Shown piece by piece: positions 10,250 through 48,416 of a stretch of DNA of 64,000 nucleotides. Both the position numbers and the translations under genes were made by a program. Below the pieces are notes generated by a model. That model saw nothing but the letters and a program-made list of their open reading frames with translations, did not search any database and had not been told where the DNA came from. Position 1 is the first letter of the stretch. Every line of letters starts with the position of its first letter. Source of the DNA: a virus; the IMG/VR virus record IMGVR_UViG_3300035698_007208, positions 1 through 64,000 of that record. The stretch is one strand, 5' to 3'.

Positions 10250-10928
10250 AAGAACTATCTATTTATTATAGTAATAGATGCTACGCATCTTTATAAACTG
10301 CATTACATTCACTCCGTAAACTACGTTCATTCATTTGTTTATAATAGTTTAGAGTTAAAACACTTAATTAATAATGTTATGTTTAATAATCGGGTTATAA
10401 TACTTCACGAAACTAGAACCATAATACACCTGTAAAGGTGATATAAAAAAACAGAGTTTGTAATTAGAAGGGAAAAACTTCTTCCCTCCCGCTTTCGCTC
10501 ATCACGAGGACTGTCCCCATCTTGGGCGCGGCTGCTTGTTTAGGAAGCGGTGAGCCTTATCTCCCTACAGTACCGTCACGAATCTCACGGAAGTCTACAT
10601 AACCTTGCCAAGTTTAGTTATATAGACGCACTAGTTGCTTTTTCTCAGAGCTAGTATCTTATAATGCCATTACGTTGATTGCATCTTGCCGACTACATCT
10701 CCAGAATCTGATGACAGAGTATGTCATCTCAAGGAGCCCTTAACGGGTTATGGTGTAGTTCCTATGTGTTGCCTTATTGAGTTGATTTAAATGTGAGGGG
10801 AGACTATTGCTCTAAAGTATGCCATGTGTGTTAGTGTGTAGTAGTAGTTATGCCTGAGTGTTATGTGGGTGCCATATTTCTGGAAAGTTATTCTTTACTT
10901 CTGAACAACTTAGGATATAAATATTAAC
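10250..10928 (+). ncRNA. Candidate large structured non-coding RNA region
   Basis: No reading frame of note spans these 679 bases, but hairpins are dense. CACCT-GTAA-AGGTG (10427-10440) is closed by a GNRA-type tetraloop. Others are CCCA-TCT-TGGG (10516-10526), GCTGCTT/AAGCGGT (10531-10551) and GTCTACATAAC/GTTATATAGAC (10593-10627, one mismatch). GACTACA/TGTAGTT (10691-10760) closes a junction containing CTCC/GGAG and the perfect 7-bp stem GATGACA/TGTCATC (10710-10728). Three G-U pairs favour a plus-strand RNA, although one mismatch would pair on the minus strand. The GACTACA/TGTAGTT pairing faintly recalls P7 of group I introns, but no matching P3 or interrupted exon was found. The first 170 bases look mostly unstructured. 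Class unknown. Confidence 0.55.
10916..10923 (+). promoter_or_regulatory. Late promoter TATAAATA, leaderless arrangement
   Basis: A perfect T4 late consensus lies exactly 5 bases before the ATG at 10929. In T4 the box spans -13 to -6, so +1 would be the A of the start codon. There is no ribosome binding site between box and ATG. Confidence 0.75.
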
Positions 10929-11444
10929 ATGGAAAGTAAATATTGTCAACTGAAAACTAAAGATATTAAAGCATTAAAGGAAAAGCTACATGCGGAGCAA
11001 GATGGGATATGCCCTTTACTTGGTTTACCTTTTCCGCCAGAAGATATGGCCTTAGACCATAAGCATAAGCTGAAAAAAAACCCCGCCGGTCCAAATGGTG
11101 ACGGGTTAGTTCGTGGCGCAATCCATAAGTTTGCCAATTCAATAGAAGGTAAAATTACTAATAATTGGAAACGAACAGGATTGGAATATACGGCAGCAGA
11201 TCTACCAAAGTATTTACGTAACCTTGCCGACTACTTAGAAAACCCACCATGTGAGCAAATATATATTCATCCCAGTGAAAAAGAAGAAGAGCCGAAGATG
11301 TCTAAAAGAAATTATAATAAGCTCAAAAAAGCATATAAATTAAGTGGGAAAAAGGCTAAATTTCCAGATCCCCCAAAATACGGAAAAGTTACAGTTAAAC
11401 TTAAAAAGTTATTTACGGAATTCGAAATCAGCCCCTACAATTAA
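10929..11444 (+). CDS. Endonuclease VII-like HNH nuclease, probable homing endonuclease
   Basis: A 171-residue protein with an N-terminal endonuclease VII/HNH fold: CPLLGLPF (residues 28-35), LDHKHK around residue 44, then GLVRGAIHKFANSIEGKI. The Asp-His pair and the RG-x-x-H-x-x-x-N pattern are conserved, while the second cysteine of the T4 endonuclease VII zinc site is absent, as in a known subfamily. The C-terminal 45 residues (YNKLKKAY to KLKKLF) resemble the tail of the next gene, a GIY-YIG protein. Preceded by a late promoter at leaderless spacing. It could resolve branched DNA like T4 gp49. Its place beside a second endonuclease and a structured RNA, between conserved convergent blocks, favours a mobile endonuclease. 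Confidence 0.75.
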   Translation: MESKYCQLKTKDIKALKEKLHAEQDGICPLLGLPFPPEDMALDHKHKLKKNPAGPNGDGLVRGAIHKFANSIEGKITNNWKRTGLEYTAADLPKYLRNLADYLENPPCEQIYIHPSEKEEEPKMSKRNYNKLKKAYKLSGKKAKFPDPPKYGKVTVKLKKLFTEFEISPYN

Positions 11445-11454
11445 AGCTATTTTG

Positions 11455-11462
11455 TATAAATA
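11455..11462 (+). promoter_or_regulatory. Late promoter TATAAATA, leaderless arrangement
   Basis: A perfect late consensus lies exactly 5 bases before the ATG at 11468. The ATG at 11462 overlaps the box and would lie upstream of the predicted +1, so it is probably not used from this promoter. Confidence 0.7.
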
Positions 11463-11467
11463 TGATT

Positions 11468-12346
11468 ATGATTACCAACAAAATAACCCTTTACATAGCA
11501 ACCCATAATATTACTGGATTAAAATATTTTGGTAAGACTGCTTCATATTTTACATCAGAAGCATTGCAGCATAATTATCACGGTTCTGGATTATATTGGA
11601 AAAGGCATATTAATAAATATGGCGATGATGTAACAATGGCAGTGTATGGTGTTTTTGATCTACATACAGTTGAAGATGTAGCATTGGCATTTAGTAAGGG
11701 CAACAATATAGTAGAGTCTTCTATGTGGGCTAATTTTAAAGATGAAAACGGGCTTGATGGGAATCCGAAAGGTATCAAATTCTCAGAAACACATAAGAAA
11801 AATATCGGCATAGCATCTAAGCGAAAATTTGAAAATATAGCAAAAACTAATGCTAAAAATTCCTTAGACGCATTAAACTATTGTACATATAAAACAGATA
11901 GCGAATTAGATATTATAAACAAAAAGAAAGCAAACCATGGATCAAAAAATGGAATGTATGGTACGAGCAGAACTGGAATAGATTGCCCAACTTATAATAG
12001 AGTATGGATAACTAAGGATAACGTCAACCAGATGGTGTATAAAACTGAATTTAAAAAGTTTTTATCATTAGGATGGACGAAGGGTGTTAAACAACAAACA
12101 TCACAATGTAAACATTGTGGTAAAGTAATGTTGAAATTTCATATAACACGATATCACGGTGATAATTGTAAAACATTGTCTGAAGCTCCTATAATTCCTA
12201 AATTTAAAAAAGTTTGCTATAACAAATTAGTTAAAGCAGTTAATGGTAAGCAAAAAGTTCCTAATTATCCTCGGTCTGGTAAATTAACCAAGGGATTAGA
12301 AAAACTGTTTGCTAAGTATAGTGTAGATATAGAGTATTATAAATAA
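11468..12346 (+). CDS. GIY-YIG family endonuclease (Seg-like homing endonuclease)
   Basis: About 292 residues. The N-terminus has a GIY-YIG-type pattern (LYIATHNITGLKYFGKT), followed by a Tyr/His/Gly-rich segment and Glu residues typical of the catalytic domain. A nuclease-associated modular helix (GIKFSETHKKNIGIA) and a second motif (NGMYG) follow, then a zinc-finger-like CKHCGKVMLKFHITRYHGDNC (split Cys2-His-Cys). The C-terminal 40 residues (CYNKLVKA to LEKLFAKY) match the tail of the preceding endonuclease VII-like protein. The start at 11468 was chosen because the promoter predicts +1 there; ATG 11462 is the alternative. The gene ends flush against the convergent gp46 gene. Confidence 0.75.
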   Translation: MITNKITLYIATHNITGLKYFGKTASYFTSEALQHNYHGSGLYWKRHINKYGDDVTMAVYGVFDLHTVEDVALAFSKGNNIVESSMWANFKDENGLDGNPKGIKFSETHKKNIGIASKRKFENIAKTNAKNSLDALNYCTYKTDSELDIINKKKANHGSKNGMYGTSRTGIDCPTYNRVWITKDNVNQMVYKTEFKKFLSLGWTKGVKQQTSQCKHCGKVMLKFHITRYHGDNCKTLSEAPIIPKFKKVCYNKLVKAVNGKQKVPNYPRSGKLTKGLEKLFAKYSVDIEYYK

Positions 12347-15127: not shown

Positions 15128-15143
15128 AATTACCTTATTATTA

Positions 15144-16106
15144 TTATTGGTTATTATCTACATCTTCGGCCGCAGCTCTCATGGTGCGTACCTCGTCTTC
15201 GTGCTTTAATTGCCGAGTATAACTAGGCAAATGTCCTTGCTCTATCAGTATATCATCCCTAATGCCTTGATTTTTCTTTTCTAAAAGTAAAACCTTTCTA
15301 AAACTATTAGTAATTACTGCCGTATAGTAAGCAAATGGGTTGTCTGATTTAGCTTCGTTGAATTGTAAGCTAATGTAAGCCAATTGCACTAATGCTTGTC
15401 CTCGCATTTCATCAACGTAAGTGTATCCTCGCCAGTTTGCACGATGGCTATATTTGTCTACTAATTTAAGAAACATAGTTCCTAATTTATTTGTAAGCAT
15501 TCCATGATTTGGATTAAATGACCCATCAGTTAAACTGCCTTTCCAATGGCTCCGAGCGACCTCGCAAATTTCACCAGTTGTTTCATCAAATGCATAGTGT
15601 TTAAAAGGAGGAAAATTTACCTTAGCTTTAGTTTCTGATACATTTTTTGGATTTTTCTTTCTACCAGGTTCTAGTGGTATATGATCAAATGTCATAACTC
15701 TAAATACAAGATTAGCTTTTGGTATAGAGTGTGGATCAACATAGAACTCTTTTTGTTTAGGTTTGTTTTTATAATCAATTCTATCGTGTGTAAGCATGGC
15801 AGCAGCATATCCTGCATCTTTAAAGCGTTTAGCTTGACTTTCCAACGCATCCTGTATATACGACCTATTTTCAGTCCATGCTTCCTTAATGGGCACATCC
15901 GATGTGCGCACTTCATTGTCGTCTACTTCGTATTCAGGAGGATGATTAACTATGTATTCCTTAGTTATGTCATCTACATTATCTAAAATTACGTCTTGCT
16001 GTCCATACTTTGCATTTTCCAAGAAGCAAAATGATAATTTGCTTTTATGTATTTCCTTGAGTATATCTTTATTATTTAAGTAATTTACTGTAGGGCCTTT
16101 CTTCAT
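15144..16106 (-). CDS. 55: Late-gene sigma factor gp55-like
   Basis: A 320-residue protein whose C-terminal half matches T4-type late sigma factors. GMLTNKLGTMFLKLVDKYS is followed by a region 2-like segment (MRGQALVQLAYISLQF, then SDNPFAYYTAVITNSFRKVLLLEKK). It would direct host RNA polymerase to TATAAATA-type boxes, several of which occur in this window. It is much longer than T4 gp55 (185) owing to an N-terminal extension of about 150 residues containing a second conserved-looking segment (FRVMTFDHIPLEPGRKKNP). It is the first gene of the 55-47-46 operon, behind a sigma70-type promoter. No strong ribosome binding site is visible. Confidence 0.88.
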   Translation of the reverse strand: MKKGPTVNYLNNKDILKEIHKSKLSFCFLENAKYGQQDVILDNVDDITKEYIVNHPPEYEVDDNEVRTSDVPIKEAWTENRSYIQDALESQAKRFKDAGYAAAMLTHDRIDYKNKPKQKEFYVDPHSIPKANLVFRVMTFDHIPLEPGRKKNPKNVSETKAKVNFPPFKHYAFDETTGEICEVARSHWKGSLTDGSFNPNHGMLTNKLGTMFLKLVDKYSHRANWRGYTYVDEMRGQALVQLAYISLQFNEAKSDNPFAYYTAVITNSFRKVLLLEKKNQGIRDDILIEQGHLPSYTRQLKHEDEVRTMRAAAEDVDNNQ

Positions 16107-16142
16107 ATATTATTATTATTCTCGATTTAAAAGGGTTCTGCT

Positions 16143-16170
16143 ATTATAACAGATATTGCAAGTATGTCAA
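16143..16170 (-). promoter_or_regulatory. Sigma70-type promoter for the 55-47-46 operon
   Basis: On the minus strand TTGACA (16170-16165) and TATAAT (16148-16143) are perfect consensus elements separated by 16 bases. The -10 lies about 37 bases before the gp55 start. This promoter can be read by the host holoenzyme before gp55 exists. Confidence 0.85.
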
Positions 16171-16250: not shown

Positions 16251-16258
16251 GATAAATA
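16251..16258 (+). promoter_or_regulatory. Late-type promoter GATAAATA for the baseplate operon
   Basis: The box lies 17 bases before the ATG at 16276. Predicted +1 at 16264 leaves a 12-base leader that contains GGAG (16267-16270). The host-type and late promoters therefore stand back to back in the 169-base gap between gp55 and the baseplate genes. Confidence 0.7.
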
Positions 16259-16275
16259 CCATTATAGGAGATATT

Positions 16276-19981: not shown

Positions 19982-19993
19982 GGAAAACACACA

Positions 19994-22937: not shown

Positions 22938-22939
22938 TT

Positions 22940-31200: not shown

Positions 31201-34200
31201 ATCTTACACCTTGGCGATTGCTAGGATTTTTTGAAATGCCATTATGGTGGGTATCAGAATACGGTACTTATTATGGATCAAACAACATTGCAATGTGGAC
31301 TGATCTTGCAGATGGTATTATAAGAAACGGTAATAGAGAAAATTTAATTAATGGTAGCTACTTAATAGACAACGCATTTAGGCGTATTGGTCTGTTGGAT
31401 GTTTTACCAGTTGATGCAAATGCAAGCATAAAGCCTCCTGCTGAAATTACAACAACAGCAGTGTCTACATTAACAATTAGCTACAATAATGCGCGAGATA
31501 CTAGTAACACTATTTTTCAAACTAATAGCATTGTGCCAACAAATGAGTTAACTGTTGATTATGACATTAATAATGTTTATTTTGACAATAAAGAAATAAC
31601 AAAAATTTACGCTGTACCAATAATTACTTTAGCAAATTTAAGTATAGTTGCAAACACAGCAACAACTATGCCATCTAGCGCAATTGGTATAACAGTAACA
31701 GGCAAGCCAATCCTTAATCCAACATTATTAGAAACTTGGAACAACGAAGGCGATTGGCATTTTAACGCTGTAAGCGCCGGAACAATTTCAAATTTTGGTA
31801 TTTACAATATAATGCCAGAAGATGCTGGCTTAGAAGAATGGGACACTTTGACACACTCTCCAATTGTAGGATGGGCGTTCGATGGTCTACCTATATATGG
31901 CCCATATGGTTATCAAGATACATCAAATATTGCAAGTAACATTGTAGCAATACGCAGTTCGTTTGTTGTAAAACAAAATACACGATTCAATGGTCCTTTT
32001 GGTAAAGCTACTGGTGAATTTATACAAGATTACGAATGGAATGGTACAAGCTTAGAATCAAACACGACTGGTGACGCTGGCCAATACAATATGCGCTATG
32101 GCTTTACTATCGATAGCCAATCTGTTGCCATATATCACTATGTTGTCACACTAGATAGTGATGGGAATCCATCTTTTCCTTATACTGTTGGTGGCGGTGT
32201 GGCTACAAGACCAGTAGGATCAAGCGATGTATTAACATATGCAGGACAATACTACGCATCGCCTCTTAACGACACAAAAAACACATTAGGAACAATAGTT
32301 AATGTTGGTACATTTTCTGCATTAATTAGTGAAAAATTTGAAACTGTAACAGCAAACGCAAAAGAAACAAATGCTGCTTGGAGATTTGGTGATTGCGCTC
32401 CTGTTGAAAATGCATGGAAGTATTCAGTTGGTTATCCTTATGCTGTTACCGAAGGATTATTGTTATCACGTCCTGGTAAATTTGTTAGTGTATTTAGCGA
32501 CCCAAGTAATATTGTTAAGTCTAATCTAGAGCGATTTAAATTAATTAGTGCGCTAACCAGAAAGCCATGGGACTACAGGAGTATAACTGATTTCAGAATA
32601 CATGGCGATGTAAACACTGCGACTAATGCCCTAATAACCAATATTGGATACACCCAATTTGTACACAGCTGGTTAGCCTTCCAAGGACTTAACACAACTG
32701 TGGATTTTGCAGACAGGTTGAGAACAGTTAATATTAAGTTAGCTCATCGTTTAGCTGGGTTTAGTGATAAAGATACGCTAACTGTAAGAAGTGATCAATT
32801 TAGTGCAACAGGCACGTCTACAAGTTTAGTGATACCTGACGAAAATGTACAACTAACTGTACATAGTTCACCATATAAGACAAGAAATTTTTACTCAGGT
32901 GTTATTATTCAGAAAAACGCAGCAGGATACAAAGTAAAAGGATATGATAAAAACTTTGGTTACTTTAATACTCTTGCATTAAATTTAAACGGTAGAACTT
33001 CTCAAATGTCAGTTGGTGGACAGCCTGCTGCATATGTGAACTGGGAACCAAATACACGATACCAAGCATTAACTATAATATTACACCTAGGATTATTTTA
33101 CCAAGCACCTCGATTTGTAACTAGTAGTTTAACATTTATTAGCACATTATGGACAAGATTGCCTTCGTTACCACAGATTGGCGCAGAGCGGGCGGCTTTA
33201 TTTTTAGATTCAACATCACAAATTACACGAGTTGATTATGAAACACAATTTGACACAGTGCAAGAAGTGGTAAACTTTTTATCTGGTCTTGGTCTTTTCC
33301 AAAGTCAGCAAGGATATGATTTTGGTATTTTTGATAACAGTATAAACGATGTAAGGAATTGGACGTATGCTATTAAGCAATTTCTTTTTTGGGTAAGTGG
33401 TGGATGGGATAACAATAATGTTTTAGAATTGAGTCCTTTAGGCGGCCGTGTTAAATTTGATAGTATATCTGGCATGGTAGCTAAGATTGATAGAGTTTCA
33501 AATAACCAATTTACATTACTTGATCAAAATAGTCGATCAATAGCGCCAACAGAATGTACAATTATCAGAGAGGGCAATAGTATAGAAATTATACCGCCAT
33601 CTGGTAGTCAAATTTATGCTGCATTATTATACACTAAAGAAATTGAACATGCCTTAATAATTGACAATACTACAAATTTTAATGATACAATTTTGAATAC
33701 ACTGTATAACCAAAAGCAAACACGGTTACGTCTTAAAGGAAAACGAACTGCCAATTGGAGTGGGTTGTTAAGTACTGAAGGATTTATTATTGATAATGAT
33801 GAACTTAAGCCAAACTTAGACAATATGGCAGAAAGTTTAGGGCGATATCATGAACTTGGGTTTATCCCAGTCGAAAAGCAACTCTATAACACAGCTAGAA
33901 GTTTATTTGGGTACCAAGAACGAGCGTATTTAAATGATTTAGAAATTGAAGATGATGACCAGTTTGAATTTTATACTGGCATGCTACAAAGTAAAGGAAC
34001 TATACCAAGTTTAACAAAAATTGCAGCCAGCAACAGTATTATACAAGGATCAATGGTAGTATTTGATGAATGGGCTTTGCGCGTTGGCGATTTTGGTGAT
34101 TTAGAGAATGAACAGAGTATTGAATTGTCACTTGAAAAAGCAGACATAGTTCAAGATCCGCAATTAATTACGTTAGTGTTTCCAGAAGACACTATTGGTG

Positions 34201-37200
34201 TCATAGACGCAATTCGAGTACTTGACACAAAGCACAAATATAACAGTGTGCCCTTATTAGTAATTGCTCAACCAACCTTAGCGCCAGCAATACAAGCAAG
34301 TGCAGAAGCATTATTGGACAATACTGGCGTAATTTCAGGATTTAAAATTATAGAAGAAGGCAGCGGTTATGTTGAGCCAGTTGTAATTCAAGTAGTAGCT
34401 GGTGATTTAGTTGTATCAAATGTTGATGTGGCATTTTCAACTCCAGTTGCACAAAGCTTATTATATTTACCGTCTAACGTAGCTAGCTTAGGCCTAAGCA
34501 ACATTCTATTATCAGACAACCTAAGTGCTAACGGTATAATAAGTATTGATGTTAGTACAGCCACAGATATTGCTAATGTAGTATCAAGTATCAACACGTC
34601 AGCAGCCACCAACGCAAATGTGTCGGCCCTAGTAGTTGAAAATACATATTTAGTTGGCAATATAGAATTGTCGCAAGTTATATTGCAAATTACAGGTAAT
34701 GATTTTACATTAATTGAAGATGGGGTTACACTTGCTAGTTTAGCAATCACGCCTGGTCGATACGAACCAAAACAACGACATAGTATTAGTACAGTAGACA
34801 ATCACCCAATACTTGGTACTGGCGCGACTGAAGAAGGTAATATTACTGTTAAAATTAACAACATTGATCTTCCACATGCTGGCGGTGGAAATTGGGAGTA
34901 TGATGCAGGGTCACGACAAAACAAGAGTTATATTATAGGCGACTCATCAGTTTCAGGTATTGATTTTGACACAAATGGAATTTACAGTGGCAATGTTACA
35001 ATTCCATTAGTTACTCCAATTGATGCAAATAACACAGCAACCGAAGCTAATGTTTATCGCCATGCGAATGTATTTATAAACGGAACTGAAATTTTAAATT
35101 CTGGAGTAACAAGAGCATATGCTATAACTACAACTGATTTGATTCTTTATAATGTTGATCAATTACCAGAAGGACAATTATTAGTTGGCGCAAATATAAG
35201 TATACACGAACATGCAACAGTTAACTTAGGAAATGCAGTAATAACTGACATACCGGGTGCAAAGTTAAGTATACGAACTGTAACAAACGATGATATTGCA
35301 ATACTTACAAAAAGTAAAAGATTATTTGAAATAAGCGAAGATGCAAAAGGCGATGAAGCAATAGTAATTGACATTGATGACTCGTCACGATTCCTTAAGA
35401 AGCCGCTAGGAGTACGAGATAATAAACTATGGCCTAGTATGTCAAGTGTTAACCATACTGGAATAACTGATGCTAGATATTTTAATATTCCTAATGCTGG
35501 GTATGTAAATAAAGCAAATGTTGATTTTAGATCATTTGATGTAAGCAGCATTGGTCAAATGTTTAGTGACCAAATTTCAATTCATCCAGAACAAAACGAT
35601 TTAATACATGTCGCAGTAAGTGAAAATTTAGACTGGAATGTTTACAAGTTAGCCGCAGCAAATACTGGCATTAGTTATGTAGAACAAGAAAACGATGACG
35701 CGACATCGTATTTATTTACTTCTAATAGTTTGTTTGATTATACTGATAGTAATCAACTACAGGAAACAGATTTAAGTAGATATTTAGATTATCATCTTGT
35801 GTTAAAGAACTCACAACTAAATGAAAAATTTGTAGTATGGGTAAATGAGCAAGTAGTTGATAGCAAACAAGTAAGGTTTAGTAATATTAGTGCAACTGTT
35901 ATGACGGAAGCTAGTGTTACAGAAATTGGACCAGAGTCTAATTCTATACTTGCAATAAGCAATATTAATCCTGGAGTAAGTTCGTTTAGCACTGCAACAG
36001 CAACAGCCAATATAGACGGCAATGGCACTGTACTTATTACAACTGACACATTTGGTGTAGAAGATGGCGATAGTGTTGCGTTCGGCGGCGCACTTGGTAA
36101 TGCTAATCCGTTATGGGCAAACTCATATATAGTATCAAATGTAACAATTGGTACCTTTACAGTATTAGATGCAGCATTAACAAGTAACATTGATATTGCA
36201 AACCTTGTGTATTCTTATTATGGGAAAACACAAATTGAAAGTGTTGATCATGGATTAAGTTCAGGTGAAATGATTAAGATCGTAGCAGGTGTATATAGTG
36301 GTGCATATCTTGTTGAAAGTGCATCAGCAAATACGTTTGTTATTGATGCCCGTTACTTAAGTGGAGCGGCAACAACAGGTAATATATTGTTAGATAACGT
36401 TGTTATAACAGCAATTGGGCATGGAATTGTAGATGCATATTCTGGTAAGCGAATAGCAGTACATAATGCAGACCCAAGGTACTATAACCAAGTTTACACG
36501 GTAGACAGTGTGACAGCTAATACTATATCAGTTAGTGGCATTTTTGCATTTGCTGATGTTGCAAATGTTATGGCAAATGCAGTGGTAACAACATTAGACC
36601 ATGATGTTATTAGATTAAATAACAGTTCAATTAAAATTGACAATTTTAATAGTGTTGACGGCATTGTTGATAGCATTAACCAAGCAGCAGACTTAAGACG
36701 AGGATTTATTACCAGAGAAGGTAGTTTTAGTATGTCAATGCCAATGATGCGATCAAATAGATTGCCAGGCGGTATAACAAGTTCGCAAATAGCAGGTTCC
36801 ATTCCTTACGTAACAAACTTAAATGGGTTTGACCAGTCTGGACTAGTTGTAACTGGTAATAGGACTATTAATCCAGATCTCACACGCAAAATTGGATTCA
36901 ACAATGACGCGGTAGTGAGAGGACAATCTCCTGCACCTAGGACAATAACGAGCGCCGCAAACCAAACACATTCGACTGTATTAAATGTAGGACCATACAG
37001 TCAAACGCTCAATAACCAATTAAACCCGTATGAGGTAAACATTGGGCCAATTAATATACCTAAAATTTCAATAATGGGTCCATTAGAAAATTTTAATCGA
37101 TCAGTAAATAACCCATCACCTAATACCGGTCTTGGGCAATTACCAAATAATAGTGGCGCACCAATTATTAATCCAGCAGCACTGATTGCATTACCAAGCG

Positions 37201-40200
37201 TGCAACTGTGTACACCTGCAATACCTGCAATTCCACCGCCGCGTCCACCAAAGCCTGCTGCACCAGCAGTGCCAGCAGTGCCAGCAATACCAGCAGTGCC
37301 AGCAATACCAGCATCGCCTGGCGTTCCTGAAGTGCCAGCAGTACCAGCAGTACCTGAAGTGCTTGCTATCCCAGGAACAGGAACAGGCAGTTGTATACAG
37401 TATAATAAATGGGAATACATTGAACAATCTACTATGACATCAAATGTGGATGATACTTGGTACTTTATGATACCTATATGTGGTTCTGTTAAGATTATAT
37501 ATGATATGGATTCAGGGGAGGACATCCTTGATGCTTTTCAAATTACTACAAGGACAGCATTTGGTGGCACTCGTATGGGTGGAACAGATACTGGTGTAAG
37601 ATTTGCAACAACAGCAGAAAAAGCACAGTTATTAAAAGGAAACAACGGAGCCGCAGCTTCTTCCTTTACATCCAATTTACCAAAAGATTTTATTAAAACA
37701 AACCCAGGGTCAAAATTTTGCGGAGTTATTGAATTTGATTTTAAACCAACCGCAGGCTCGTATCTACGCATCGACGTTGATAAAAATAGCAGTATTTATA
37801 AATTTTTAATAGGCTACCCATCAACAGTAGGTGTAGTTAATCCGCAACAAAACACAAACCCAGGCCAGCCTGCAAACATACCACCATATAATGGTGTAGG
37901 TGTGGTTCCAAACATGAATACTATACCTCAAACGCCAATAATACAGCCAGCAGGTACGCCAATCAATAAACTCAAAAAAGTAAATGGCGGTATGCGTGAT
38001 GATGAATTTAATTTTAGAAATGGCGCCGGAGGCGGTAGGTATTCTAATGCCGGCGAGTATTATGTTTCTAATTTTAGTGGATTTAGTTCAGCACCAATGG
38101 CCGGTTTTGGATTTATTCCAAGTGTGTTTAAAAAGACAGTAAAAATAACTTCACCATTAAATGTTAACAGACATCAAGCGTTATCATCAGGCCGGTATGT
38201 CAATACAGTAGTGCATCGTGTTTCTGGTGGAATTATAATACCATTTGCAGATCGACTGCCAACTCCAATATTCATAGGAGCAAAGCCAATAAAAGGTTTA
38301 GATTTAATTAATGATCCATTATTTCGTTTGGCTGGTGACATAGCAAATGGACAAAATGTACATTTTAATTACAATCCAAGAAAAATAAGCAGTGCAAATT
38401 ACACAATGGACAGTATTGGCTTACCAGCAAGCATTAATACGGTTACATCTAATGGCAGCATTGGTCCTAATGGCAGCATTAATCCGGTTACACCTAATGG
38501 CAGCATTGGTCCTAATGGCAGCATTGGTCCTAATGGCAGCATTGGTCCTAATGGCAAGGTTACTAGCACCACACCAGGAGTATTTGATTACACGCCATTA
38601 GCTGGTAACTTGCCTTCAACAGTATTGGGATCCCCACTTGTGAGTTTAGAATTAGCACCACCAACTATAGCAGACGCCATAGACTCTCCAGTTGATGTTG
38701 ATAATGTAGAATTTAATAACATTCCTATTATTACTCTTATTCCAAAAGTGAAGACAGTGGACGGATCATTTGTGCCAGCAGGTCCAACTTGTTATTGCCC
38801 GGTACATAGACCGTCGCCAAGCGTAACAATTAGTCCATCTGATCTTATTGGTGCAACACCAGGCGATCAAATATTAATTAACAACACTGCTGTAACTATA
38901 CAATCTAATGTAGATGCTACTATGAATTCAATTGAATGTGCAATTGGTTCAGGGTTTACAACAATGCGCACAACAAGAGACTACAACGAAGCAATTAAGT
39001 TAATATCTTGCACAAATGCACCAATTACATTTAAAGACGGATGCAGGGGTGGCGTTTATAAAGAAGTACTTGATTTTCATGTTGTAAAGTCGTTCAGTTT
39101 ATCATCAACAAGCAATGCATTAGTAGTAGCAGCGTCAACTGGGTATGGTGCTGGTAATACAGCTACATTTGTTACTCCGTCAGTAACTTATACTAGATAC
39201 AGTGAAGAAGGGGAAGTACAAGATACACTACCTCAAACTAGTACAACAACAACAGGTAGCATATTAACTGCTCAAACAGCACACACTGGCGGCGGCGGTT
39301 ATTCTGTTGGCGATAGATTGCGTGTAGTTGGCGGCGTACCAATTGCTTCGCCATATGGTAGCATTACTGAGTTATGTATTGGCGATCCTGGATCAAATTA
39401 TTCCGAAGCTGCTAATGTTAAAATTTATATTGGTGACGGGTCCACTCCTGGAACAGGCGCAGTAGTTGGTAATGTAGTGCTTAATGCAAATGGTGGAATT
39501 TCAACTATTGAATTAATAAATTCAGGAATTGGATATGATGGCGCCCGCCAACCAACAGTAAGGGTTGTTGATATTGGTGCAGCAACAGCACCAACCATTG
39601 CAAGTCCAGCTAAAGTGTCAGTTAAAATTGGAACAGAAACAATTGGACGCAATGGTTTATCAATAACATCTTATGGCCTTCCTGAGCGAGTTGCTAAGTT
39701 TGTAGTAACACAAATAGATGCTACTGGTGCAATTTTAGGATTACAGTCAATTGATAGGGGCATTTATAAACAGTTTCCAAGTGACTTAACGACTGGTATA
39801 CCATTAGAATATGATGCTGTAAATTTAGGTGATGAATGGGGAGGAGAACTTCCACCATCAAGTTCAACAGGGCTGGGTGGGTTTGACCCACTTAACAACC
39901 ATGCCACATTGCCATCGCCTGGTGGATATAATCCGCTAACTGGTGATTTTGCTGGCGGTACCGGCGCAAGGGTATTTTTAACAGCTCGAGAAATTCCAGA
40001 CTGTTCGGAAAAGGGTGACGCAAGAAGCAAGATGGGACTTCCATCTAGCACAGGCGCAGTAAGCATACCGTCACATTTAGCTGATTTACTTAATACTGGC
40101 TTGTTGAACGGTGGTTATACTCCAACCGATATATCTTTTGGAGTAGGATCAATTAATGATGACTTTGATACTATTACTTTAGAATCGCCAACATTTGACG

Positions 40201-43200
40201 GAATTGAAATTGGGGAATTGACCCCTGGATTCCTTGATAAAATAGGCATACCGCCCGGCGATTATAATCCAGACATGGGGGTGCTTTCAGCAGTGAATAC
40301 TACTCCATTGAATGATAGTAACGGTACTACCCCTGACAATATTGGAAACAATAACGGCAATGGAAACAATAACGGCAATGGAACCAATGGAAACAATGGA
40401 AACAATGGAAACACTGCTATTAATGGTATTGGCGCTAGAACGGCATTGCCAATAGAATCAATTGCAATATACGGAGTTGACAATGTTGGTGGAAGTAGTG
40501 GAACAAATGGCCAAGACACAAATAGTGTACTTGGTACAGCAAGTGTCCAATACATTACTGATTTATTTCAATACGAATTAAGAACACTCGCAGGCAATCC
40601 AGTTGTAGCAAATAACCAAGCCCAGCAAACGTCTGTGTTGGTATTTGAAAGTCAGCGATATAATACTGAAAATGATATTGCTATTGCTAACGTGTCATAT
40701 GCAGACATCCCTTCAACCATAGCAGAGTTTGCTAATGTTTGGATTGATGATTATATGACTACAGGGTGGGCTTATCTTGAGGGTAACGTAACACAGCGGA
40801 ATCAAACGTCATTAGTAGATCCAAAATTTATTAATAATGTTATTATTTATGACAGTACAACTGGTGAAAAGGAATTTGATTATGATATATATGACCCGTT
40901 TAAAGGTGTATTGCCTGCATTTATAGAAGCAGCTCTTAATTATATTAGTTCTAATGATCCAGTTGTATATAACAGCACAAAGGCATTTTTTGGAAGAAAA
41001 AATATTGGACAATTGTGGTGGGATACTAGTTCTGTTAGATATAACTGGTATGAACAAGGACCAAATAGAGAGCGTTGGTTAAATTGGGGATCGTCATTCC
41101 CAGGTTCAGCTATTACTATTTACGAATGGGTTGAAAGTGTAAAAACTCCATTAGAATATACTGGTACTGGTACACCTAAAAATGGCAGTGAGTTCTTAAT
41201 AGAACGACGATTGAATCCAACTACAAACAACCACCAAAACTATTACTATTACTGGGTACAAAACGTTCAAGAAATCAATATACAAGCAAAAACTCAATAT
41301 AATAGACAGTTTACTGCATTAGCAATAGCTAGGTACATTTCAGACCCTAATGGTCAGGGATTGAATACTATTGGTTTTATTAGTAGTGGAGATTCCGATT
41401 CTACAAATCTTGCAAGTATGATGATGTCAAACTTAAGTAATACATTAAGAGAAGACGAACAAAATATTCAAATTAATCTTAGTAGAAATTTAAATCCAAT
41501 TGGCCTAAAGCATGTTGCTTGGAAATTATTAAGAGAAGGCGATAATAATAGTGAAATACCAGAAGATTTAAGCGCAAAAATGATCGATAGTTTGTGTGAA
41601 TTAAACAGTGTTGGCCAAACAGTTCCTGAACCAAATTTAAGCGTTGTTGAACGGTTTGGTGTACAGTTTCGACCAAGGCAGACAATATTTAAAAATCCTA
41701 ACGAGGCTCGACGAGCATTGCATTTTGTTTTAAACGAAATATTGGCAGACTTTAAATTGAATTCTTTATTCCCAACATGGGATGATGCGCTACCAAGCAA
41801 AACATACATTAAGTCTGTTAATTGGTACGCAGTAGAACGAATAGACGGTACAACTAATGAAAAAATATATTATAACGCATCGTTCAAGCCGGTTTATACA
41901 GTATCAAGTGCTGGTGAATTGGAGGCTATTAAGCGTAGCAGTTTAGCAGACGGTACGGTAATAATGGTTCGATCAAACTTAACTGAAAGATTCCAACTTT
42001 GGAGATTTAACGCAACTAAGTCAGCATTTGAACAAATTGCAATTGAAAACGAAACAGCAGAACTATCAACTACAATCTTTACTGACGATGTTAATGCAGT
42101 AATGCAAGCTGAATTACGCGCATTTTTAGAAACATTAAGAGATGACATTTTCCTTGGAACTTCACTATGGAACGAAGTATTTTTTGAGATGTTAAGATAT
42201 GCAATAGCAGAACAGCCAGAACTGGATTGGGCATTTAAAACTTCATACTTATTTGTAGAAAAAGAAGAAGAAGATTTGATTCAACGCAAAGGATTTAACC
42301 CTGATAACTTCTCACCAGTATTAGATTATTTAAACGAAGTCAAGCCTTACACGGCTAAAATACGTGGTTACAAAGACGGTAAAAAGACACCAATATTTTT
42401 CATTAAGGACCAAATGATAAGTGACTTTGATAGGCCTCCATATCCTGATTCATCGTTAGGTGAAATAAGAATACTTGATAATAATGATACAGTTGACACT
42501 AGTATACTAGCAACAGATAGTCGTTATATTAAGTGGAACTCTGCAATTAACGATGATAATTCACCAATAAGGACTGGCAATATTAATTTAGTATTTGATA
42601 GAGTTGATTGGAGATTATTAGAACCATATCATGATACGTCTGTATCCAGTTATTCGCGCAGTATAGCAAATAACATTGCTACATTAAATGCAGAATCATT
42701 AGATGACGTAAGTGCTAATTCTACTTATTCAATGTCAAGTAGAATTTTTAAGTTTGACCCAGATGTGCGATCACAATTTAATACGGACATTGATTCATAT
42801 TTTGGTAACGGCGCAAGCGCAAATTCAAGTATTACAGAAAATAGCATGCAATTGCTATCAGCAATACAAGATGGTGGATTAACAACTACACTAACTTTAG
42901 TACAAGAAAAAGTAGGTGGTGGATATCGAGGGGAATTGCTTGATGCTAATGTATTTACTAGAGTAGTAAGTGGTACAGATGCTCTTACTCTACAGTCTGT
43001 ATTTGGGTACGATACTACACCATGGGACAATACACTTGGATTTGGATCAGAATGGGATACAAATATTGAAGTTGAAAATTATGAAGGTATTTTTGATGGC
43101 AATGTAACATTTAGACGTGATGGTGTTACATTTGAAGGATTTGATGGTGTTACTTTTAAGAAACTAATATATGGTGAAGAGCGCCCTGAAGAATTAGTAA

Positions 43201-44078
43201 TGTTATCACCACTAGAAAACTTCATTATGAATGTAAAAACATCTATTGCTGCATTTGATGCAAATGGCTTAATAGTTGACACTATTAGTGTCGGCCCATT
43301 TGATGCTAATGTGAGTCCATCAGATGCAAATGGTACAGTTACAGTAACAAGTATAATTTCAACTCCTTTACTAAATGATAATGATATAATTAATTTAGCA
43401 GGCGAAACAACTACTCCAATAACAGGCTCGTATGTTATATCAAACATTAATATATCAGCTCGTAGTTTTACTATTGACTTAGCTAATGTTGATGCAAATA
43501 TAATAACAACAGCAGGTAATATATTGTTAACAAGTGGAGTTTCAGCAGTTGATGTAGAATTCATAGTACACCAAGATTTGTTTGGCGGAAGCGAGTATAT
43601 CAGAGTGTTATCTGATAGAAGTACAAGTACCAATTCAGCAACACCTATTGCGATATGGGATGAAGAAATTGCTGTAGTGGACGCAACAAAGCTACCAATA
43701 CCAACCCTTGCTGTGCCTGGTGTTGTATGGTTAAATCATTCAGAACGAATAGAGTATAGGACAACAATTAATAATGTGCTTATTGATATTACACGTGGTA
43801 CACGTGGAACTACTATATCAAGTCACCCATCGGGCATAGTTATTGATGATGGCTCATCAGCACAAGTATTTAACAGTGAATTAAATCTTGGTTTTGAAAG
43901 TCGTAACCCAGAAACGGCTACTTGGTTAAACACAAGTGGCACCATTTCGTTAAGTTTGTCAGACATAACAAACAGAAGTAACAGTAACCAAATTGCAGCG
44001 TTTTTACAGGGAGAACTTACTGTAAGTATTGGTTGGGATGCAAGAGGATGGGATAGTGATGCATTTGATAGTGCATAA
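28239..44078 (+). CDS. 7: Giant gp7-like baseplate wedge/structural protein
   Basis: A single 5279-residue frame, five times T4 gp7 (1032). The N-terminus (LYSKANTEQLKGFIG, then DFINYQEYYWFPS-like segments) is typical of the gp7-type wedge protein that follows gp6 in marine T4-like phages. A YHYH-domain signature is present: PIYGPYGY near residue 1217 and YHY at 1299-1301. A Pro-Ala-Val/Ile collagen-like tract (3005-3045), an NGSIGP repeat (3405-3441) and an Asn-Gly repeat (4036-4059) follow. Near the C-terminus are a Trp-rich segment (about residue 4260) and FNPDNFSPVLDYLNEVKPYTAKI (about 4688). Many Asn/Ala/Thr-rich beta units lie between. It may combine gp7 with other peripheral baseplate parts or adhesin-like functions. 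Confidence 0.75.
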   Translation: MADKIVKQLPVVLQTTAIKNFFESTVEQLYSKANTEQLKGFIGKKTGDDFGLSGAFIPEATADRREYNLTPAVNIINSVTGDSENLTFYDEFIDILETYGVDVRNQNILFGSNYQTFMPPIDIDKFINYQEYYWFPSAPTAITVTHSVASPINIDVDIIGQTQFTSETGIIFRNGMTVVFAGDYIIPGASALFASHNVGVEYTVGGVGNAIFLVETRINTSTRYGGSSIDEKDYIVIDKGSLNGASWSRVNHWYHKKNFEDAGDIIPSKEHRANRPIVEFDRYLELMNHGINYRGSVTLSAVTETLATVTGQANLTIDSHAIVDGDRIIFPNEVSANRTYIYLVSNAATSITLTPDPSETALITGDTVSIAKGFTYVGLDYLYDGSSLLIAQTKTKINQPPLFVLYDDTGVRLDDLGLYPQSTFVGNSIFGYKIGTGVNDDELKFPVSYVSFKTASEFAFENFIETDQVKFQAFGSTEISKVNGTYYYKLTTTVPEFSSYWKTSNNRNEQKINSTYELNQFDIDDALLVYNVGAIPNIKVSAVSGYDIITKVNNVVVVNYTYESEKIKFTSFDFSVGDIIEITVNSDIGITTASSSRYSLPLSWRANPNNEEIEIIAEPQYLGHFTNFIKTQEGFTGDVLGSNNFASTSKDVSHAKDIVQTDQDLTLAVFMLDDQPHNLVDAIRFNSREYEKYKARLIKEITNYYNSFDMSTQTNEYILDQVLRSLISYSVGKAVFNSTYVIPFGDNYIEETFDVADTTDVAYTLTNYLDTSLITNSLLVYKGTSAVDQQLLLLDRDYTVTNVNPITITLTSALNLELGNSIITKLYSEERDSAQCPATPSTMGMFPMFLPQREMDVSFKVPIEVIKGHDGSKIALLGDVRDDILLEFETRIYNASTQELRESISLPELNTQTVTPGIFRNNTLTPVGSADLLRYNFESWVSNNKVDPVVNEFYNATDKWTWNYRGNSDIPGHWKGWYDYYYDTTSPHLTPWRLLGFFEMPLWWVSEYGTYYGSNNIAMWTDLADGIIRNGNRENLINGSYLIDNAFRRIGLLDVLPVDANASIKPPAEITTTAVSTLTISYNNARDTSNTIFQTNSIVPTNELTVDYDINNVYFDNKEITKIYAVPIITLANLSIVANTATTMPSSAIGITVTGKPILNPTLLETWNNEGDWHFNAVSAGTISNFGIYNIMPEDAGLEEWDTLTHSPIVGWAFDGLPIYGPYGYQDTSNIASNIVAIRSSFVVKQNTRFNGPFGKATGEFIQDYEWNGTSLESNTTGDAGQYNMRYGFTIDSQSVAIYHYVVTLDSDGNPSFPYTVGGGVATRPVGSSDVLTYAGQYYASPLNDTKNTLGTIVNVGTFSALISEKFETVTANAKETNAAWRFGDCAPVENAWKYSVGYPYAVTEGLLLSRPGKFVSVFSDPSNIVKSNLERFKLISALTRKPWDYRSITDFRIHGDVNTATNALITNIGYTQFVHSWLAFQGLNTTVDFADRLRTVNIKLAHRLAGFSDKDTLTVRSDQFSATGTSTSLVIPDENVQLTVHSSPYKTRNFYSGVIIQKNAAGYKVKGYDKNFGYFNTLALNLNGRTSQMSVGGQPAAYVNWEPNTRYQALTIILHLGLFYQAPRFVTSSLTFISTLWTRLPSLPQIGAERAALFLDSTSQITRVDYETQFDTVQEVVNFLSGLGLFQSQQGYDFGIFDNSINDVRNWTYAIKQFLFWVSGGWDNNNVLELSPLGGRVKFDSISGMVAKIDRVSNNQFTLLDQNSRSIAPTECTIIREGNSIEIIPPSGSQIYAALLYTKEIEHALIIDNTTNFNDTILNTLYNQKQTRLRLKGKRTANWSGLLSTEGFIIDNDELKPNLDNMAESLGRYHELGFIPVEKQLYNTARSLFGYQERAYLNDLEIEDDDQFEFYTGMLQSKGTIPSLTKIAASNSIIQGSMVVFDEWALRVGDFGDLENEQSIELSLEKADIVQDPQLITLVFPEDTIGVIDAIRVLDTKHKYNSVPLLVIAQPTLAPAIQASAEALLDNTGVISGFKIIEEGSGYVEPVVIQVVAGDLVVSNVDVAFSTPVAQSLLYLPSNVASLGLSNILLSDNLSANGIISIDVSTATDIANVVSSINTSAATNANVSALVVENTYLVGNIELSQVILQITGNDFTLIEDGVTLASLAITPGRYEPKQRHSISTVDNHPILGTGATEEGNITVKINNIDLPHAGGGNWEYDAGSRQNKSYIIGDSSVSGIDFDTNGIYSGNVTIPLVTPIDANNTATEANVYRHANVFINGTEILNSGVTRAYAITTTDLILYNVDQLPEGQLLVGANISIHEHATVNLGNAVITDIPGAKLSIRTVTNDDIAILTKSKRLFEISEDAKGDEAIVIDIDDSSRFLKKPLGVRDNKLWPSMSSVNHTGITDARYFNIPNAGYVNKANVDFRSFDVSSIGQMFSDQISIHPEQNDLIHVAVSENLDWNVYKLAAANTGISYVEQENDDATSYLFTSNSLFDYTDSNQLQETDLSRYLDYHLVLKNSQLNEKFVVWVNEQVVDSKQVRFSNISATVMTEASVTEIGPESNSILAISNINPGVSSFSTATATANIDGNGTVLITTDTFGVEDGDSVAFGGALGNANPLWANSYIVSNVTIGTFTVLDAALTSNIDIANLVYSYYGKTQIESVDHGLSSGEMIKIVAGVYSGAYLVESASANTFVIDARYLSGAATTGNILLDNVVITAIGHGIVDAYSGKRIAVHNADPRYYNQVYTVDSVTANTISVSGIFAFADVANVMANAVVTTLDHDVIRLNNSSIKIDNFNSVDGIVDSINQAADLRRGFITREGSFSMSMPMMRSNRLPGGITSSQIAGSIPYVTNLNGFDQSGLVVTGNRTINPDLTRKIGFNNDAVVRGQSPAPRTITSAANQTHSTVLNVGPYSQTLNNQLNPYEVNIGPINIPKISIMGPLENFNRSVNNPSPNTGLGQLPNNSGAPIINPAALIALPSVQLCTPAIPAIPPPRPPKPAAPAVPAVPAIPAVPAIPASPGVPEVPAVPAVPEVLAIPGTGTGSCIQYNKWEYIEQSTMTSNVDDTWYFMIPICGSVKIIYDMDSGEDILDAFQITTRTAFGGTRMGGTDTGVRFATTAEKAQLLKGNNGAAASSFTSNLPKDFIKTNPGSKFCGVIEFDFKPTAGSYLRIDVDKNSSIYKFLIGYPSTVGVVNPQQNTNPGQPANIPPYNGVGVVPNMNTIPQTPIIQPAGTPINKLKKVNGGMRDDEFNFRNGAGGGRYSNAGEYYVSNFSGFSSAPMAGFGFIPSVFKKTVKITSPLNVNRHQALSSGRYVNTVVHRVSGGIIIPFADRLPTPIFIGAKPIKGLDLINDPLFRLAGDIANGQNVHFNYNPRKISSANYTMDSIGLPASINTVTSNGSIGPNGSINPVTPNGSIGPNGSIGPNGSIGPNGKVTSTTPGVFDYTPLAGNLPSTVLGSPLVSLELAPPTIADAIDSPVDVDNVEFNNIPIITLIPKVKTVDGSFVPAGPTCYCPVHRPSPSVTISPSDLIGATPGDQILINNTAVTIQSNVDATMNSIECAIGSGFTTMRTTRDYNEAIKLISCTNAPITFKDGCRGGVYKEVLDFHVVKSFSLSSTSNALVVAASTGYGAGNTATFVTPSVTYTRYSEEGEVQDTLPQTSTTTTGSILTAQTAHTGGGGYSVGDRLRVVGGVPIASPYGSITELCIGDPGSNYSEAANVKIYIGDGSTPGTGAVVGNVVLNANGGISTIELINSGIGYDGARQPTVRVVDIGAATAPTIASPAKVSVKIGTETIGRNGLSITSYGLPERVAKFVVTQIDATGAILGLQSIDRGIYKQFPSDLTTGIPLEYDAVNLGDEWGGELPPSSSTGLGGFDPLNNHATLPSPGGYNPLTGDFAGGTGARVFLTAREIPDCSEKGDARSKMGLPSSTGAVSIPSHLADLLNTGLLNGGYTPTDISFGVGSINDDFDTITLESPTFDGIEIGELTPGFLDKIGIPPGDYNPDMGVLSAVNTTPLNDSNGTTPDNIGNNNGNGNNNGNGTNGNNGNNGNTAINGIGARTALPIESIAIYGVDNVGGSSGTNGQDTNSVLGTASVQYITDLFQYELRTLAGNPVVANNQAQQTSVLVFESQRYNTENDIAIANVSYADIPSTIAEFANVWIDDYMTTGWAYLEGNVTQRNQTSLVDPKFINNVIIYDSTTGEKEFDYDIYDPFKGVLPAFIEAALNYISSNDPVVYNSTKAFFGRKNIGQLWWDTSSVRYNWYEQGPNRERWLNWGSSFPGSAITIYEWVESVKTPLEYTGTGTPKNGSEFLIERRLNPTTNNHQNYYYYWVQNVQEINIQAKTQYNRQFTALAIARYISDPNGQGLNTIGFISSGDSDSTNLASMMMSNLSNTLREDEQNIQINLSRNLNPIGLKHVAWKLLREGDNNSEIPEDLSAKMIDSLCELNSVGQTVPEPNLSVVERFGVQFRPRQTIFKNPNEARRALHFVLNEILADFKLNSLFPTWDDALPSKTYIKSVNWYAVERIDGTTNEKIYYNASFKPVYTVSSAGELEAIKRSSLADGTVIMVRSNLTERFQLWRFNATKSAFEQIAIENETAELSTTIFTDDVNAVMQAELRAFLETLRDDIFLGTSLWNEVFFEMLRYAIAEQPELDWAFKTSYLFVEKEEEDLIQRKGFNPDNFSPVLDYLNEVKPYTAKIRGYKDGKKTPIFFIKDQMISDFDRPPYPDSSLGEIRILDNNDTVDTSILATDSRYIKWNSAINDDNSPIRTGNINLVFDRVDWRLLEPYHDTSVSSYSRSIANNIATLNAESLDDVSANSTYSMSSRIFKFDPDVRSQFNTDIDSYFGNGASANSSITENSMQLLSAIQDGGLTTTLTLVQEKVGGGYRGELLDANVFTRVVSGTDALTLQSVFGYDTTPWDNTLGFGSEWDTNIEVENYEGIFDGNVTFRRDGVTFEGFDGVTFKKLIYGEERPEELVMLSPLENFIMNVKTSIAAFDANGLIVDTISVGPFDANVSPSDANGTVTVTSIISTPLLNDNDIINLAGETTTPITGSYVISNINISARSFTIDLANVDANIITTAGNILLTSGVSAVDVEFIVHQDLFGGSEYIRVLSDRSTSTNSATPIAIWDEEIAVVDATKLPIPTLAVPGVVWLNHSERIEYRTTINNVLIDITRGTRGTTISSHPSGIVIDDGSSAQVFNSELNLGFESRNPETATWLNTSGTISLSLSDITNRSNSNQIAAFLQGELTVSIGWDARGWDSDAFDSA
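37252..37371 (+). repeat. Pro-Ala-Val/Ile repeat tract in the giant gene
   Basis: Twelve-base units (ccagcagtgcca, ccagcaatacca) encode PAVPAVPAIP-type sequence, likely an extended, stiff linker. Frames on both strands stay open here because of the repeat. Confidence 0.85.
38451..38558 (+). repeat. 18-base tandem repeat encoding NGSIGP units
   Basis: aatggcagcattggtcct is repeated about five times with one variant copy (ending in aatccggttaca), encoding Asn-Gly-Ser-Ile-Gly-Pro. Near-identical DNA copies suggest recent expansion. Confidence 0.85.
40344..40412 (+). repeat. Asn-Gly tandem repeat in the giant gene
   Basis: ggaaacaat/aacggcaat units of 9 bases encode Gly-Asn-Asn and Asn-Gly-Asn. 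Likely a flexible linker between two domains. Confidence 0.8.
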
Positions 44079-44102
44079 TAAAACTTAGTTTTAATGGAAG
44101 AT

Positions 44103-44110
44103 GATAAATA
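44103..44110 (+). promoter_or_regulatory. Late-type promoter GATAAATA, leaderless arrangement
   Basis: The box ends exactly 5 bases before the ATG at 44116, so the predicted +1 is the A of that ATG. It separates the giant gene from the fibre-like genes. Confidence 0.65.
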
Positions 44111-44115
44111 GTTAT

Positions 44116-44259
44116 ATGTCAAATACACAAGAACCTAAGCAAGAACAAACGAAAGACGACGATCATGCAATTGATTGTCTCGGATTAAACATGAGTGGTC
44201 ATATTTTAATCCGAGACAAAGAAACTAAAGAAGAATTAGTTAATAAGAGAGCTGAATAA
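44116..44259 (+). CDS. 47-residue mini-protein, partial copy of the next gene's start
   Basis: A short frame starting MSNTQEPKQE with an acidic/charged N-terminus and ending LNMSGHILIRDKETKEELVN plus four residues. This second half closely resembles the start of the next gene (LNMKGHVLVKDKESGEVLAD). Its TAA is immediately followed by the next ATG (44260), so the two are translationally coupled. It begins at the predicted +1 of a late promoter. It could be a truncated duplicate, a leader peptide that delivers ribosomes to the next gene, or a small structural protein. Confidence 0.55.
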   Translation: MSNTQEPKQEQTKDDDHAIDCLGLNMSGHILIRDKETKEELVNKRAE

Positions 44260-44820
44260 ATGAATTTAAATATGAAAGGTCATGTTTTAGTAAAAGATAA
44301 AGAATCTGGTGAAGTGTTAGCTGACCAAAATAACGCTATTCATTACGGAAATATGGCAAGAATCGTAGCATTAGCACTTAATAACACTGCCGATGCTTAT
44401 ATTAATTTTGTAGCATTTGGAAATGGTGGGACTAGTGTAGATACTTCAGGTAAGGTACTGTATAAAACACCAAGAGTGAGTGAGGCATATGATGCCTCAA
44501 GTAACTTATACAATACTACTTATAACAAAGACATATTTCCTGGTGATTCCACAAACAAAATAGAAATTATAACCGGTGCCTCATATACTGATATTAAAAT
44601 GACAGTTACTTTAGGATTTTCAGAGCCTGCAGGGCAAGAGGTATTTGATACAAGTATTACAAATGAAGGTGAGTACATTTTTGATGAATTAGGTGTATTT
44701 ACTAACAGTACGGATTTTGCAGACGCAATAATGCTAACGCATGTTATCTTTCACCCTGTACAAAAAAGTCAAAACCGAGTGATAGAAATAATTTATACAA
44801 TCAGAATACAGTTAAGTTAA
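44260..44820 (+). CDS. Virion structural protein, fibre-associated (unknown)
   Basis: A 186-residue, beta-rich protein. The N-terminal domain (GHVLVKDKESGEVLADQNNAIHYGNMARIVA, split) starts with a sequence duplicated in the preceding mini-ORF. The middle contains YINFVAFGNGGTSVD, and the C-terminal part FDELGVFTNS followed by a final beta-strand IEIIYTIRIQLS. Similar proteins sit next to fibre genes in marine T4-like phages (memory, not checked). No ribosome binding site is seen, consistent with coupling to the mini-ORF. Precise role unknown. Confidence 0.6.
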   Translation: MNLNMKGHVLVKDKESGEVLADQNNAIHYGNMARIVALALNNTADAYINFVAFGNGGTSVDTSGKVLYKTPRVSEAYDASSNLYNTTYNKDIFPGDSTNKIEIITGASYTDIKMTVTLGFSEPAGQEVFDTSITNEGEYIFDELGVFTNSTDFADAIMLTHVIFHPVQKSQNRVIEIIYTIRIQLS

Positions 44821-44832
44821 CGAGGAAACAAA

Positions 44833-47021: not shown

Positions 47022-47024
47022 AAA

Positions 47025-47999: not shown

Positions 48000-48013
48000 C
48001 AGTTTACTGAACG

Positions 48014-48044
48014 AGCCAGTAATCCACGTTACTGGCTTTTTTTT
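48014..48044 (+). terminator. Strong Rho-independent terminator
   Basis: AGCCAGTAA (48014-48022) and TTACTGGCT (48029-48037) form a perfect 9-bp stem with a 6-base loop, followed by an unbroken T-tract to 48044. It ends the structural transcript. Confidence 0.93.
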
Positions 48045-48046
48045 GA

Positions 48047-48054
48047 CTTAAATA
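48047..48054 (+). promoter_or_regulatory. Late-like box CTTAAATA, leaderless arrangement
   Basis: Two mismatches to TATAAATA, but placed exactly 5 bases before the ATG at 48060 and immediately after the terminator, where a new promoter is expected. No ribosome binding site lies between terminator and ATG. Confidence 0.45.
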
Positions 48055-48059
48055 GTAGT

Positions 48060-48416
48060 ATGAGCACAAAATTAACTAAAGCATTACAATTTTCAAACAC
48101 ATTAATGACGATTAATAATCATAAGGCTATTTTGTTAGCTAAAACCGAAGCAATGCTAAGTTACAGCGTAAATGGTGGCACGTTTACTGTTAACCGCGAA
48201 CTATTGGGCTTTTTACATTCGTGTATGGAGTTAAATCAGCTGGTGTTGCTTGATGATAACAAAAATCCAATTCTAATTACAGATATTCCTGAGTTTTACG
48301 ATGAAGTAAAAAGTAGATACTTTGAAGTAGTGAATGATTATCACGCCGAATATGAAAAATTACGCAAGCAGCGAAAAATACACACGGTATTAGATTTAAA
48401 CAAAGATGGCGGGTAA
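48060..48416 (+). CDS. Protein of unknown function
   Basis: A 118-residue, mostly helical protein (ALQFSNTLMTINNHKAILLAKTEAML, split; then FTVNRELLGFLHSCMELNQLVLLDDNKNP, split), ending in a charged helix YHAEYEKLRKQRKIHTVLD. It is the first gene after the structural-block terminator and overlaps the downstream glycosyltransferase-like gene. No known family recognised; no membrane segment or signal peptide. Confidence 0.6.
   Translation: MSTKLTKALQFSNTLMTINNHKAILLAKTEAMLSYSVNGGTFTVNRELLGFLHSCMELNQLVLLDDNKNPILITDIPEFYDEVKSRYFEVVNDYHAEYEKLRKQRKIHTVLDLNKDGG

Follow-up and report, generated by a model that had tools for sequence, protein, structure and literature searches.

The locus

The window (the whole 64,000-nucleotide stretch of DNA analysed here) is part of a 97,926-base virus record (IMGVR_UViG_3300035698_007208), a 97.9-kb contig that is a fragment of a large phage. 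The contig carries T4-type capsid, protease and portal genes, its structural proteins match those of jumbo phages (PA5oct and 121Q, for example), and the gene for a gp55-type late sigma factor lies in the window; such a sigma was also found in 121Q, PA5oct and three further genomes of the comparison (G001, G002 and G003). A single 5279-aa ORF (28239-44078) takes up a quarter of the window, directly upstream of the promoter of the ORF at 44116, and the large virion structural protein of PA5oct (49627-61200) occupies the same place. The features on which the analysis is centred are:

10916-10923, plus strand: late-promoter box TATAAATA, followed by TTAAC and the ATG at 10929 (predicted +1 at 10929)
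10929-11444, plus strand: endonuclease VII (T4 gp49-like) gene, predicted leaderless (PF02945, E 3e-6; phrog_423, E 3e-30)
11455-11462, plus strand: late-promoter box TATAAATA, followed by TGATT and the ATG at 11468
11468-12346, plus strand: putative GIY-YIG endonuclease gene, with ATG 11468 as its predicted leaderless start (weak BLASTP match)
15144-16106, minus strand: gp55-type late sigma factor (phrog_12791, E 5e-81; phrog_234, E 1e-21)
16259-16275, plus strand: contrasting 17-nt stretch with AGGAG, between a GATAAATA box (16251-16258) and the ATG at 16276
44103-44110, plus strand: late-promoter box GATAAATA, followed by GTTAT and the ATG at 44116
44116-44259, plus strand: 47-aa ORF, predicted leaderless, partly duplicating the N-terminus of the gene that follows
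44260-44820, plus strand: main cistron (phrog_11259), joined directly to the 44116 ORF by TAAATG, without SD
48013-48038, plus strand: intrinsic terminator (stem of 11 pairs with a T run), shortly ahead of the late box at 48047
48047-48054, plus strand: late-promoter box CTTAAATA, followed by GTAGT and the ATG at 48060
48060-48416, plus strand: 118-aa gene, first of its unit, predicted leaderless

The initial annotation had described a T4-type late box followed by exactly five bases and an ATG (N5 spacing, or d=5) at 10929, 11468, 44116 and 48060, and all four sites were found in the sequence. Its statement that they have no ribosome binding site also holds, as there is no SD motif between box and ATG at any of them (the AGGA near 10929 sits upstream of the box, outside the predicted transcript). 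In T4 the late box lies at -13 to -6 (PMC2988020), so that the sixth base after the box is +1. With this offset, which we took over from T4 for these phages, transcription would begin on the A of each ATG and leave no leader, as had been proposed; promoter geometry supports this as a prediction. The genes cited as normally leadered behave as described, with box and SD upstream of the portal gene (d=36), 23662 (d=31) and 16276 (d=17), and a box about 66 nt upstream of 9147 together with AGGAG. Between 9045 and 9147 two GATAAATA boxes diverge (plus strand 9073-9080; minus strand 9121-9114), so that the 9147 gene and the tape-measure gene each have a predicted leader of ~66-69 nt.

Genes behind the boxes

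The product of the 10929 gene is the reciprocal best hit of T4 46382 and 121Q 326017, and these two endonuclease VII orthologues have SD-leadered promoters. Together with the PF02945 (Endonuclease_7) and phrog_423 matches, the reciprocal hit with T4 46382 rules out a homing or mobile endonuclease at 10929; gp49/endonuclease VII is a core packaging and recombination enzyme. The suggestion that N5 spacing serves the mobile endonucleases consequently fails for this gene. Nevertheless, it holds in the relatives, in which homing endonucleases are repeatedly N5 (three GIY-YIG enzymes in G011 and G009, and another homing endonuclease in G011). Two of these GIY-YIG genes (G011 146046 and G009 136499) lie in or near tRNA clusters, which comprise 25 and 28 genes in loci L225 and L240 (of G011 and G009, respectively).

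The gene at 11468 probably encodes a GIY-YIG endonuclease, judging from a weak BLASTP match to a GIY-YIG homing endonuclease of G011 (E 1e-4, in a single comparison). Its product gave no significant PHROG or Pfam profile match, a homologue search found no relatives, and the fold model (pLDDT 30) was unusable. An alternative in-frame ATG at 11462 overlaps the box.

Translation of the 44260 cistron is probably coupled to that of the small 44116 ORF. The arrangement of small ORF and main cistron recurs in PA5oct (gp356/gp357), G011, L065, L073, L077 and L079, the spacing of the small ORF being N5 in PA5oct gp356 and N6 in G011 (209264), and G001 and G002 have a single ORF in place of such a pair. 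PA5oct gp357, the 44260 orthologue, is annotated as detected by ESI-MS/MS. The gene at 48060 comes after the terminator ending at 48038, and its box is therefore the first late-promoter-like element of a new unit.

Box-to-start distances in the contig and its relatives

One rival reading of the four sites is chance, since an AT-rich genome would place TAAATA near many ATGs, of which four were picked. The box is indeed not in excess overall: TATAAATA was found 10 times in the window (11.9 expected) and NATAAATA 47 times in the contig (58 expected). Upstream of genes it is enriched, with ATAAATA ranking second of 21 permuted 7-mers in the contig (14 occurrences against a median of 4). When called starts could be shifted to an adjacent in-frame ATG, five TAAATA sites in the contig stood at d=5 (10929, 11468, 44116, 48060 and 83768 on the minus strand) against 28 over the other 59 distances, or ~0.5 per any other spacing (Poisson p ~1.4e-4). 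The fifth, a GATAAATA-N5-ATG site outside the window (83768 of the contig, 19768 of L003), moves the start of the 83154-83795 gene. With only these five sites, the statistics of this single genome are weak before start alternatives and relatives are brought in.

For the relatives, 85 loci were fetched around homologues of two window genes, and their box-to-ATG distances clustered tightly at 5 and, beyond a gap, spread over a broad hump. Most d=5 cases came from two orthologous families, and the analysis was therefore moved to whole contigs. Four large contigs (G001, 339.8 kb; G002, 250.5 kb; G009, 249.8 kb; G011, 293.3 kb) and a smaller one (G012, 72.9 kb), all from uncultured phages, were set beside T4, 121Q, PA5oct, phiKT1024, G003, G005 and G013. 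Start codons were taken from a home-made gene caller that scores up SD motifs, so that its bias runs against N5 starts.

In the four large contigs the distances are two-peaked, with a spike at exactly 5, a nearly empty interval from 7 to 16 and a broad hump at 17-40 where the genes have SD motifs. Pooling G001, G002, G009 and G011 gave 5 sites at d0-4, 83 at d5-6, 10 at d7-16 and 106 at d17-40. Counting ATAAATA within 60 nt of a start, N5 accounts for 16 of 64 boxes in G001 (plus 6 at N6), 24/66 in G002, 17/39 in G009, 15/65 in G011 (plus 5 at N6) and 4/11 in G012; in the four large contigs, where other distances hold ~0.4-0.9 each, p ranges from 3e-14 to 3e-27. PA5oct (3/41) and G003 (3/52) are intermediate, and no N5 site stands at a gene start in T4 (0/26), 121Q (0/33) or Vibrio phage phiKT1024 (0/45), in which the 17-40 hump is present. 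A cultured carrier of the spike was sought among the T4-like phages CP220, D483, Bellamy, IME-SM1, phiAS5, VH-8 and phiKT1024, with 0-5 raw matches each; none of the five in phiKT1024 is at a called gene start.

The genome-wide distribution of these distances, which the initial annotation had named as a check, thus shows an overwhelming N5 excess in the relatives. The box ranks first of 21 permuted 7-mers for upstream enrichment in G001 and in G002, and permuted 7-mers occur only 0-1 times at d=5. Moreover, TAAATA-N5 precedes 5-10% of called start ATGs versus 0.05-0.1% of all other ATGs. A spike at d=5 only, in several genomes and absent for permuted 7-mers and for non-start ATGs, together with the retention of the exact spacing in orthologues, refutes chance as a general account, which we regard as almost certainly wrong; it could still apply to the single site at 11468.

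The spike genomes fall into two groups in the portal and capsid trees, {G000, G001, G002} and {G009, G011, G012}, with PA5oct plus G003 and 121Q apart from both; the trees leave the order of the groups unsettled.

Start-site signature and translation signals

In the leadered promoters of G000, G001 and G002 the fifth base after the box is T in 65% and the sixth is A in 71%, as compared with 65% and 65% in T4, and an ATG at the predicted +1 of leadered promoters is rare (0-1 per genome in G001, G002, G009 and G011). At N5 genes the predicted -1 base is a pyrimidine in 41/41 cases, followed by the A of the ATG, and the same position is a pyrimidine in 18/21 N5 cases of G009 and 19/19 of G011.

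These data bear on the possibility that TAAATA-N5 acts as a signal for translation, in the form of an A/U-rich element that binds ribosomes, and not as a promoter. The fixed distance to the start codon in the N5 class would suit such an element. On the other hand, the same motif occurs 17-40 nt upstream of other genes that have their own SD, with the T-A step at the T4 start position, it agrees with the consensus known for late promoters, and a gp55-type sigma is encoded by the phage. We consider a translation signal very improbable.

A second possibility is that the boxes are real late promoters with a variable start, yielding a leader of 1-4 nt or a slipped start and a "near-leaderless" translation. 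Some orthologues indeed have N6, N7 or N8 instead of N5; however, N5 dominates (27 N5 versus 0 N6 in G002), and at N5 the -1 base is a pyrimidine in 41/41 cases. This reading, which we judge unlikely, would in any case be a minor mechanistic variant of a start on the A of the ATG.

An SD-like motif precedes 7 of the 99 N5/N6 genes but 91 of the 105 leadered ones (Fisher p 1e-33); among the other genes it is found before 707 of 1254. The N5/N6 genes also start with ATG more often (97/99 versus 1144/1254, p 0.013), and their first 45 nt are less structured at raw base composition (mean -2.8 versus -3.8 kcal/mol, p 1e-4). It could be argued that the N5 ATGs are annotation errors and that the true start is a downstream codon with its own SD. 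Within 30 codons, a downstream start of this kind with an SD-like motif was found in 8/99 N5/N6 genes, but not in the remaining 91/99; the N5 start is, moreover, common to orthologues, and PA5oct gp262, whose annotated start is the N5 ATG, is listed as detected by MS. We give misplaced starts very little credence. An earlier in-frame start is absent in 74/99 of these genes and present in 25/99.

Conservation and switching among orthologues

Exact N5 spacing is common to G001 and G002 orthologues at 31-73% identity, among them the large terminase (68%) and a head-tail adaptor (73%), along with the MKWL (52%) and MTKKLEEEF (51%) genes; in 121Q, PA5oct, G003 and T4 the orthologues of the G001/G002 N5 genes mostly have an SD leader or no box. 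The families of the window genes give a similar picture, in counts that are not of independent events since the relatives are partly non-independent: N5 precedes 14 of 36 distinct homologues of 48060 (more distant ones having an SD leader), and N5, N6 or N8 precedes the 44116-type cistron in 35 of the 72 distinct sequences compared. Homologues of the 10929 endonuclease VII on separate contigs have N5 in L198, L199/L200, L201, L202, L203 and L210, and N6 in L205.

Relation to known systems

The late transcription of T4 is textbook material, with late genes translated from SD leaders. Leaderless initiation is usually viewed as rare or stress-linked in bacteria that use SD. T4-type late promoters and leaderless mRNAs are each already known; our literature searches found no report of a leaderless late class in gp55-type phages.

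The promoters described here resemble the T4 late promoters (gp55/gp33/gp45) in the 8-bp TATAAATA-type box, the lack of a -35 element, the gp55-type sigma and the A/T-rich start region (PMC2988020). They differ in their N5-ATG starts, which T4 lacks among its 26 ATAAATA boxes within 60 nt of a start, the T4 late leaders having SD in 22/23 cases. Structural genes and late sigma are shared with PA5oct (Arenbergviridae) and with the Asteriusvirus 121Q / CBB jumbo phages, and for CBB an ATAAATA late motif has been predicted (PMC5259590); nevertheless, PA5oct has three N5 genes without SD, compared with 15-24 in the spike genomes, and 121Q has none. The PA5oct genes are gp356 (ATG at 49602, minus strand), gp262 (144985, plus strand) and gp213, the latter when read from an internal ATG at 180252, 15 nt inside an annotated ORF whose first base is 180267. 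The predicted transcripts are also like the leaderless mRNAs of the lambda cI type found in bacteria and phages (5'-AUG, no SD, strong ATG preference; PMC9031893), but they are tied to the promoter of one phage sigma factor and concern ~5-10% of called-ATG genes, terminase and virion genes included. A functional parallel is T4 I-TevI, which has a late promoter immediately upstream and is translatable only from late transcripts; there T4 hides the SD in a hairpin of the early transcript that is absent from late ones (PMC2988022), whereas here there is no SD at all.

Translation factors encoded by the phages were considered as an explanation and rejected. IF3 is reported to antagonise leaderless initiation; it was not found in the leaderless-rich genomes tested, and only 121Q has one. 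This IF3-like protein (NC_025447, 34184-34438; PF00707) lies in a genome without N5 genes, a single case that may be coincidence. bS21 (PF01165) occurs in 3 of the 6 genomes searched (G001, G003 and PA5oct), with no correlation. The tRNA-Met genes of G001, G009 and G011 do not have the GGG/CCC anticodon stem and so are not phage initiator tRNAs; the tRNA search of the window contig found none.

A proposed leaderless late mode

The sequence itself shows the boxes with their exact spacing and its conservation, the missing SD, a gene for a gp55-type sigma and the T-A step in leadered promoters. We conclude that the sites are very probably late promoters of the T4 type that depend on gp55 and have their +1 on the A of the start codon, giving leaderless mRNAs that begin 5'-AUG and have no SD. 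The leaderless expression mode proposed in the initial annotation is backed by the N5 spike in relatives, the absence of SD, the T-A signature, the conserved spacing and the negative results in T4, 121Q and phiKT1024. From the letters of the genome we infer that the RNA 5' end would lie at the A of the ATG and that initiation would take place at the 5'-terminal AUG. In the proposed mechanism, the gp55-type sigma would direct late transcription from the box, the RNA would begin at the sixth base after it, which is the A of the ATG, and the resulting 5'-AUG late mRNA would be translated leaderlessly, without SD.

A same-strand gene lies ahead of 75 of the 99 N5/N6 genes, which would therefore also be carried on read-through transcripts from upstream genes, there without an SD before the ORF. 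An N5 ORF may thus be translatable only from its own late promoter, and we propose that leaderlessness in this way ties the protein to late, gp55-dependent transcription. Whether this is a clade-wide second late mode of uncultured jumbo phages, covering ~5-10% of genes (the terminase and other virion genes among them) with the absence of SD acting as a "late gate", we put forward tentatively, as an idea with somewhat less than an even chance of being correct. The efficiency of leaderless translation at late times would be host-dependent.

PA5oct is cultured and has three N5 genes, so that the prediction can be tested now. In these phages a large number of late genes, including virion genes, seem to have been moved to leaderless expression of single-base precision, while those of sister phages have not, and the orthologues with and without leaders offer a natural comparison for how and why a virus chooses leaderless initiation.
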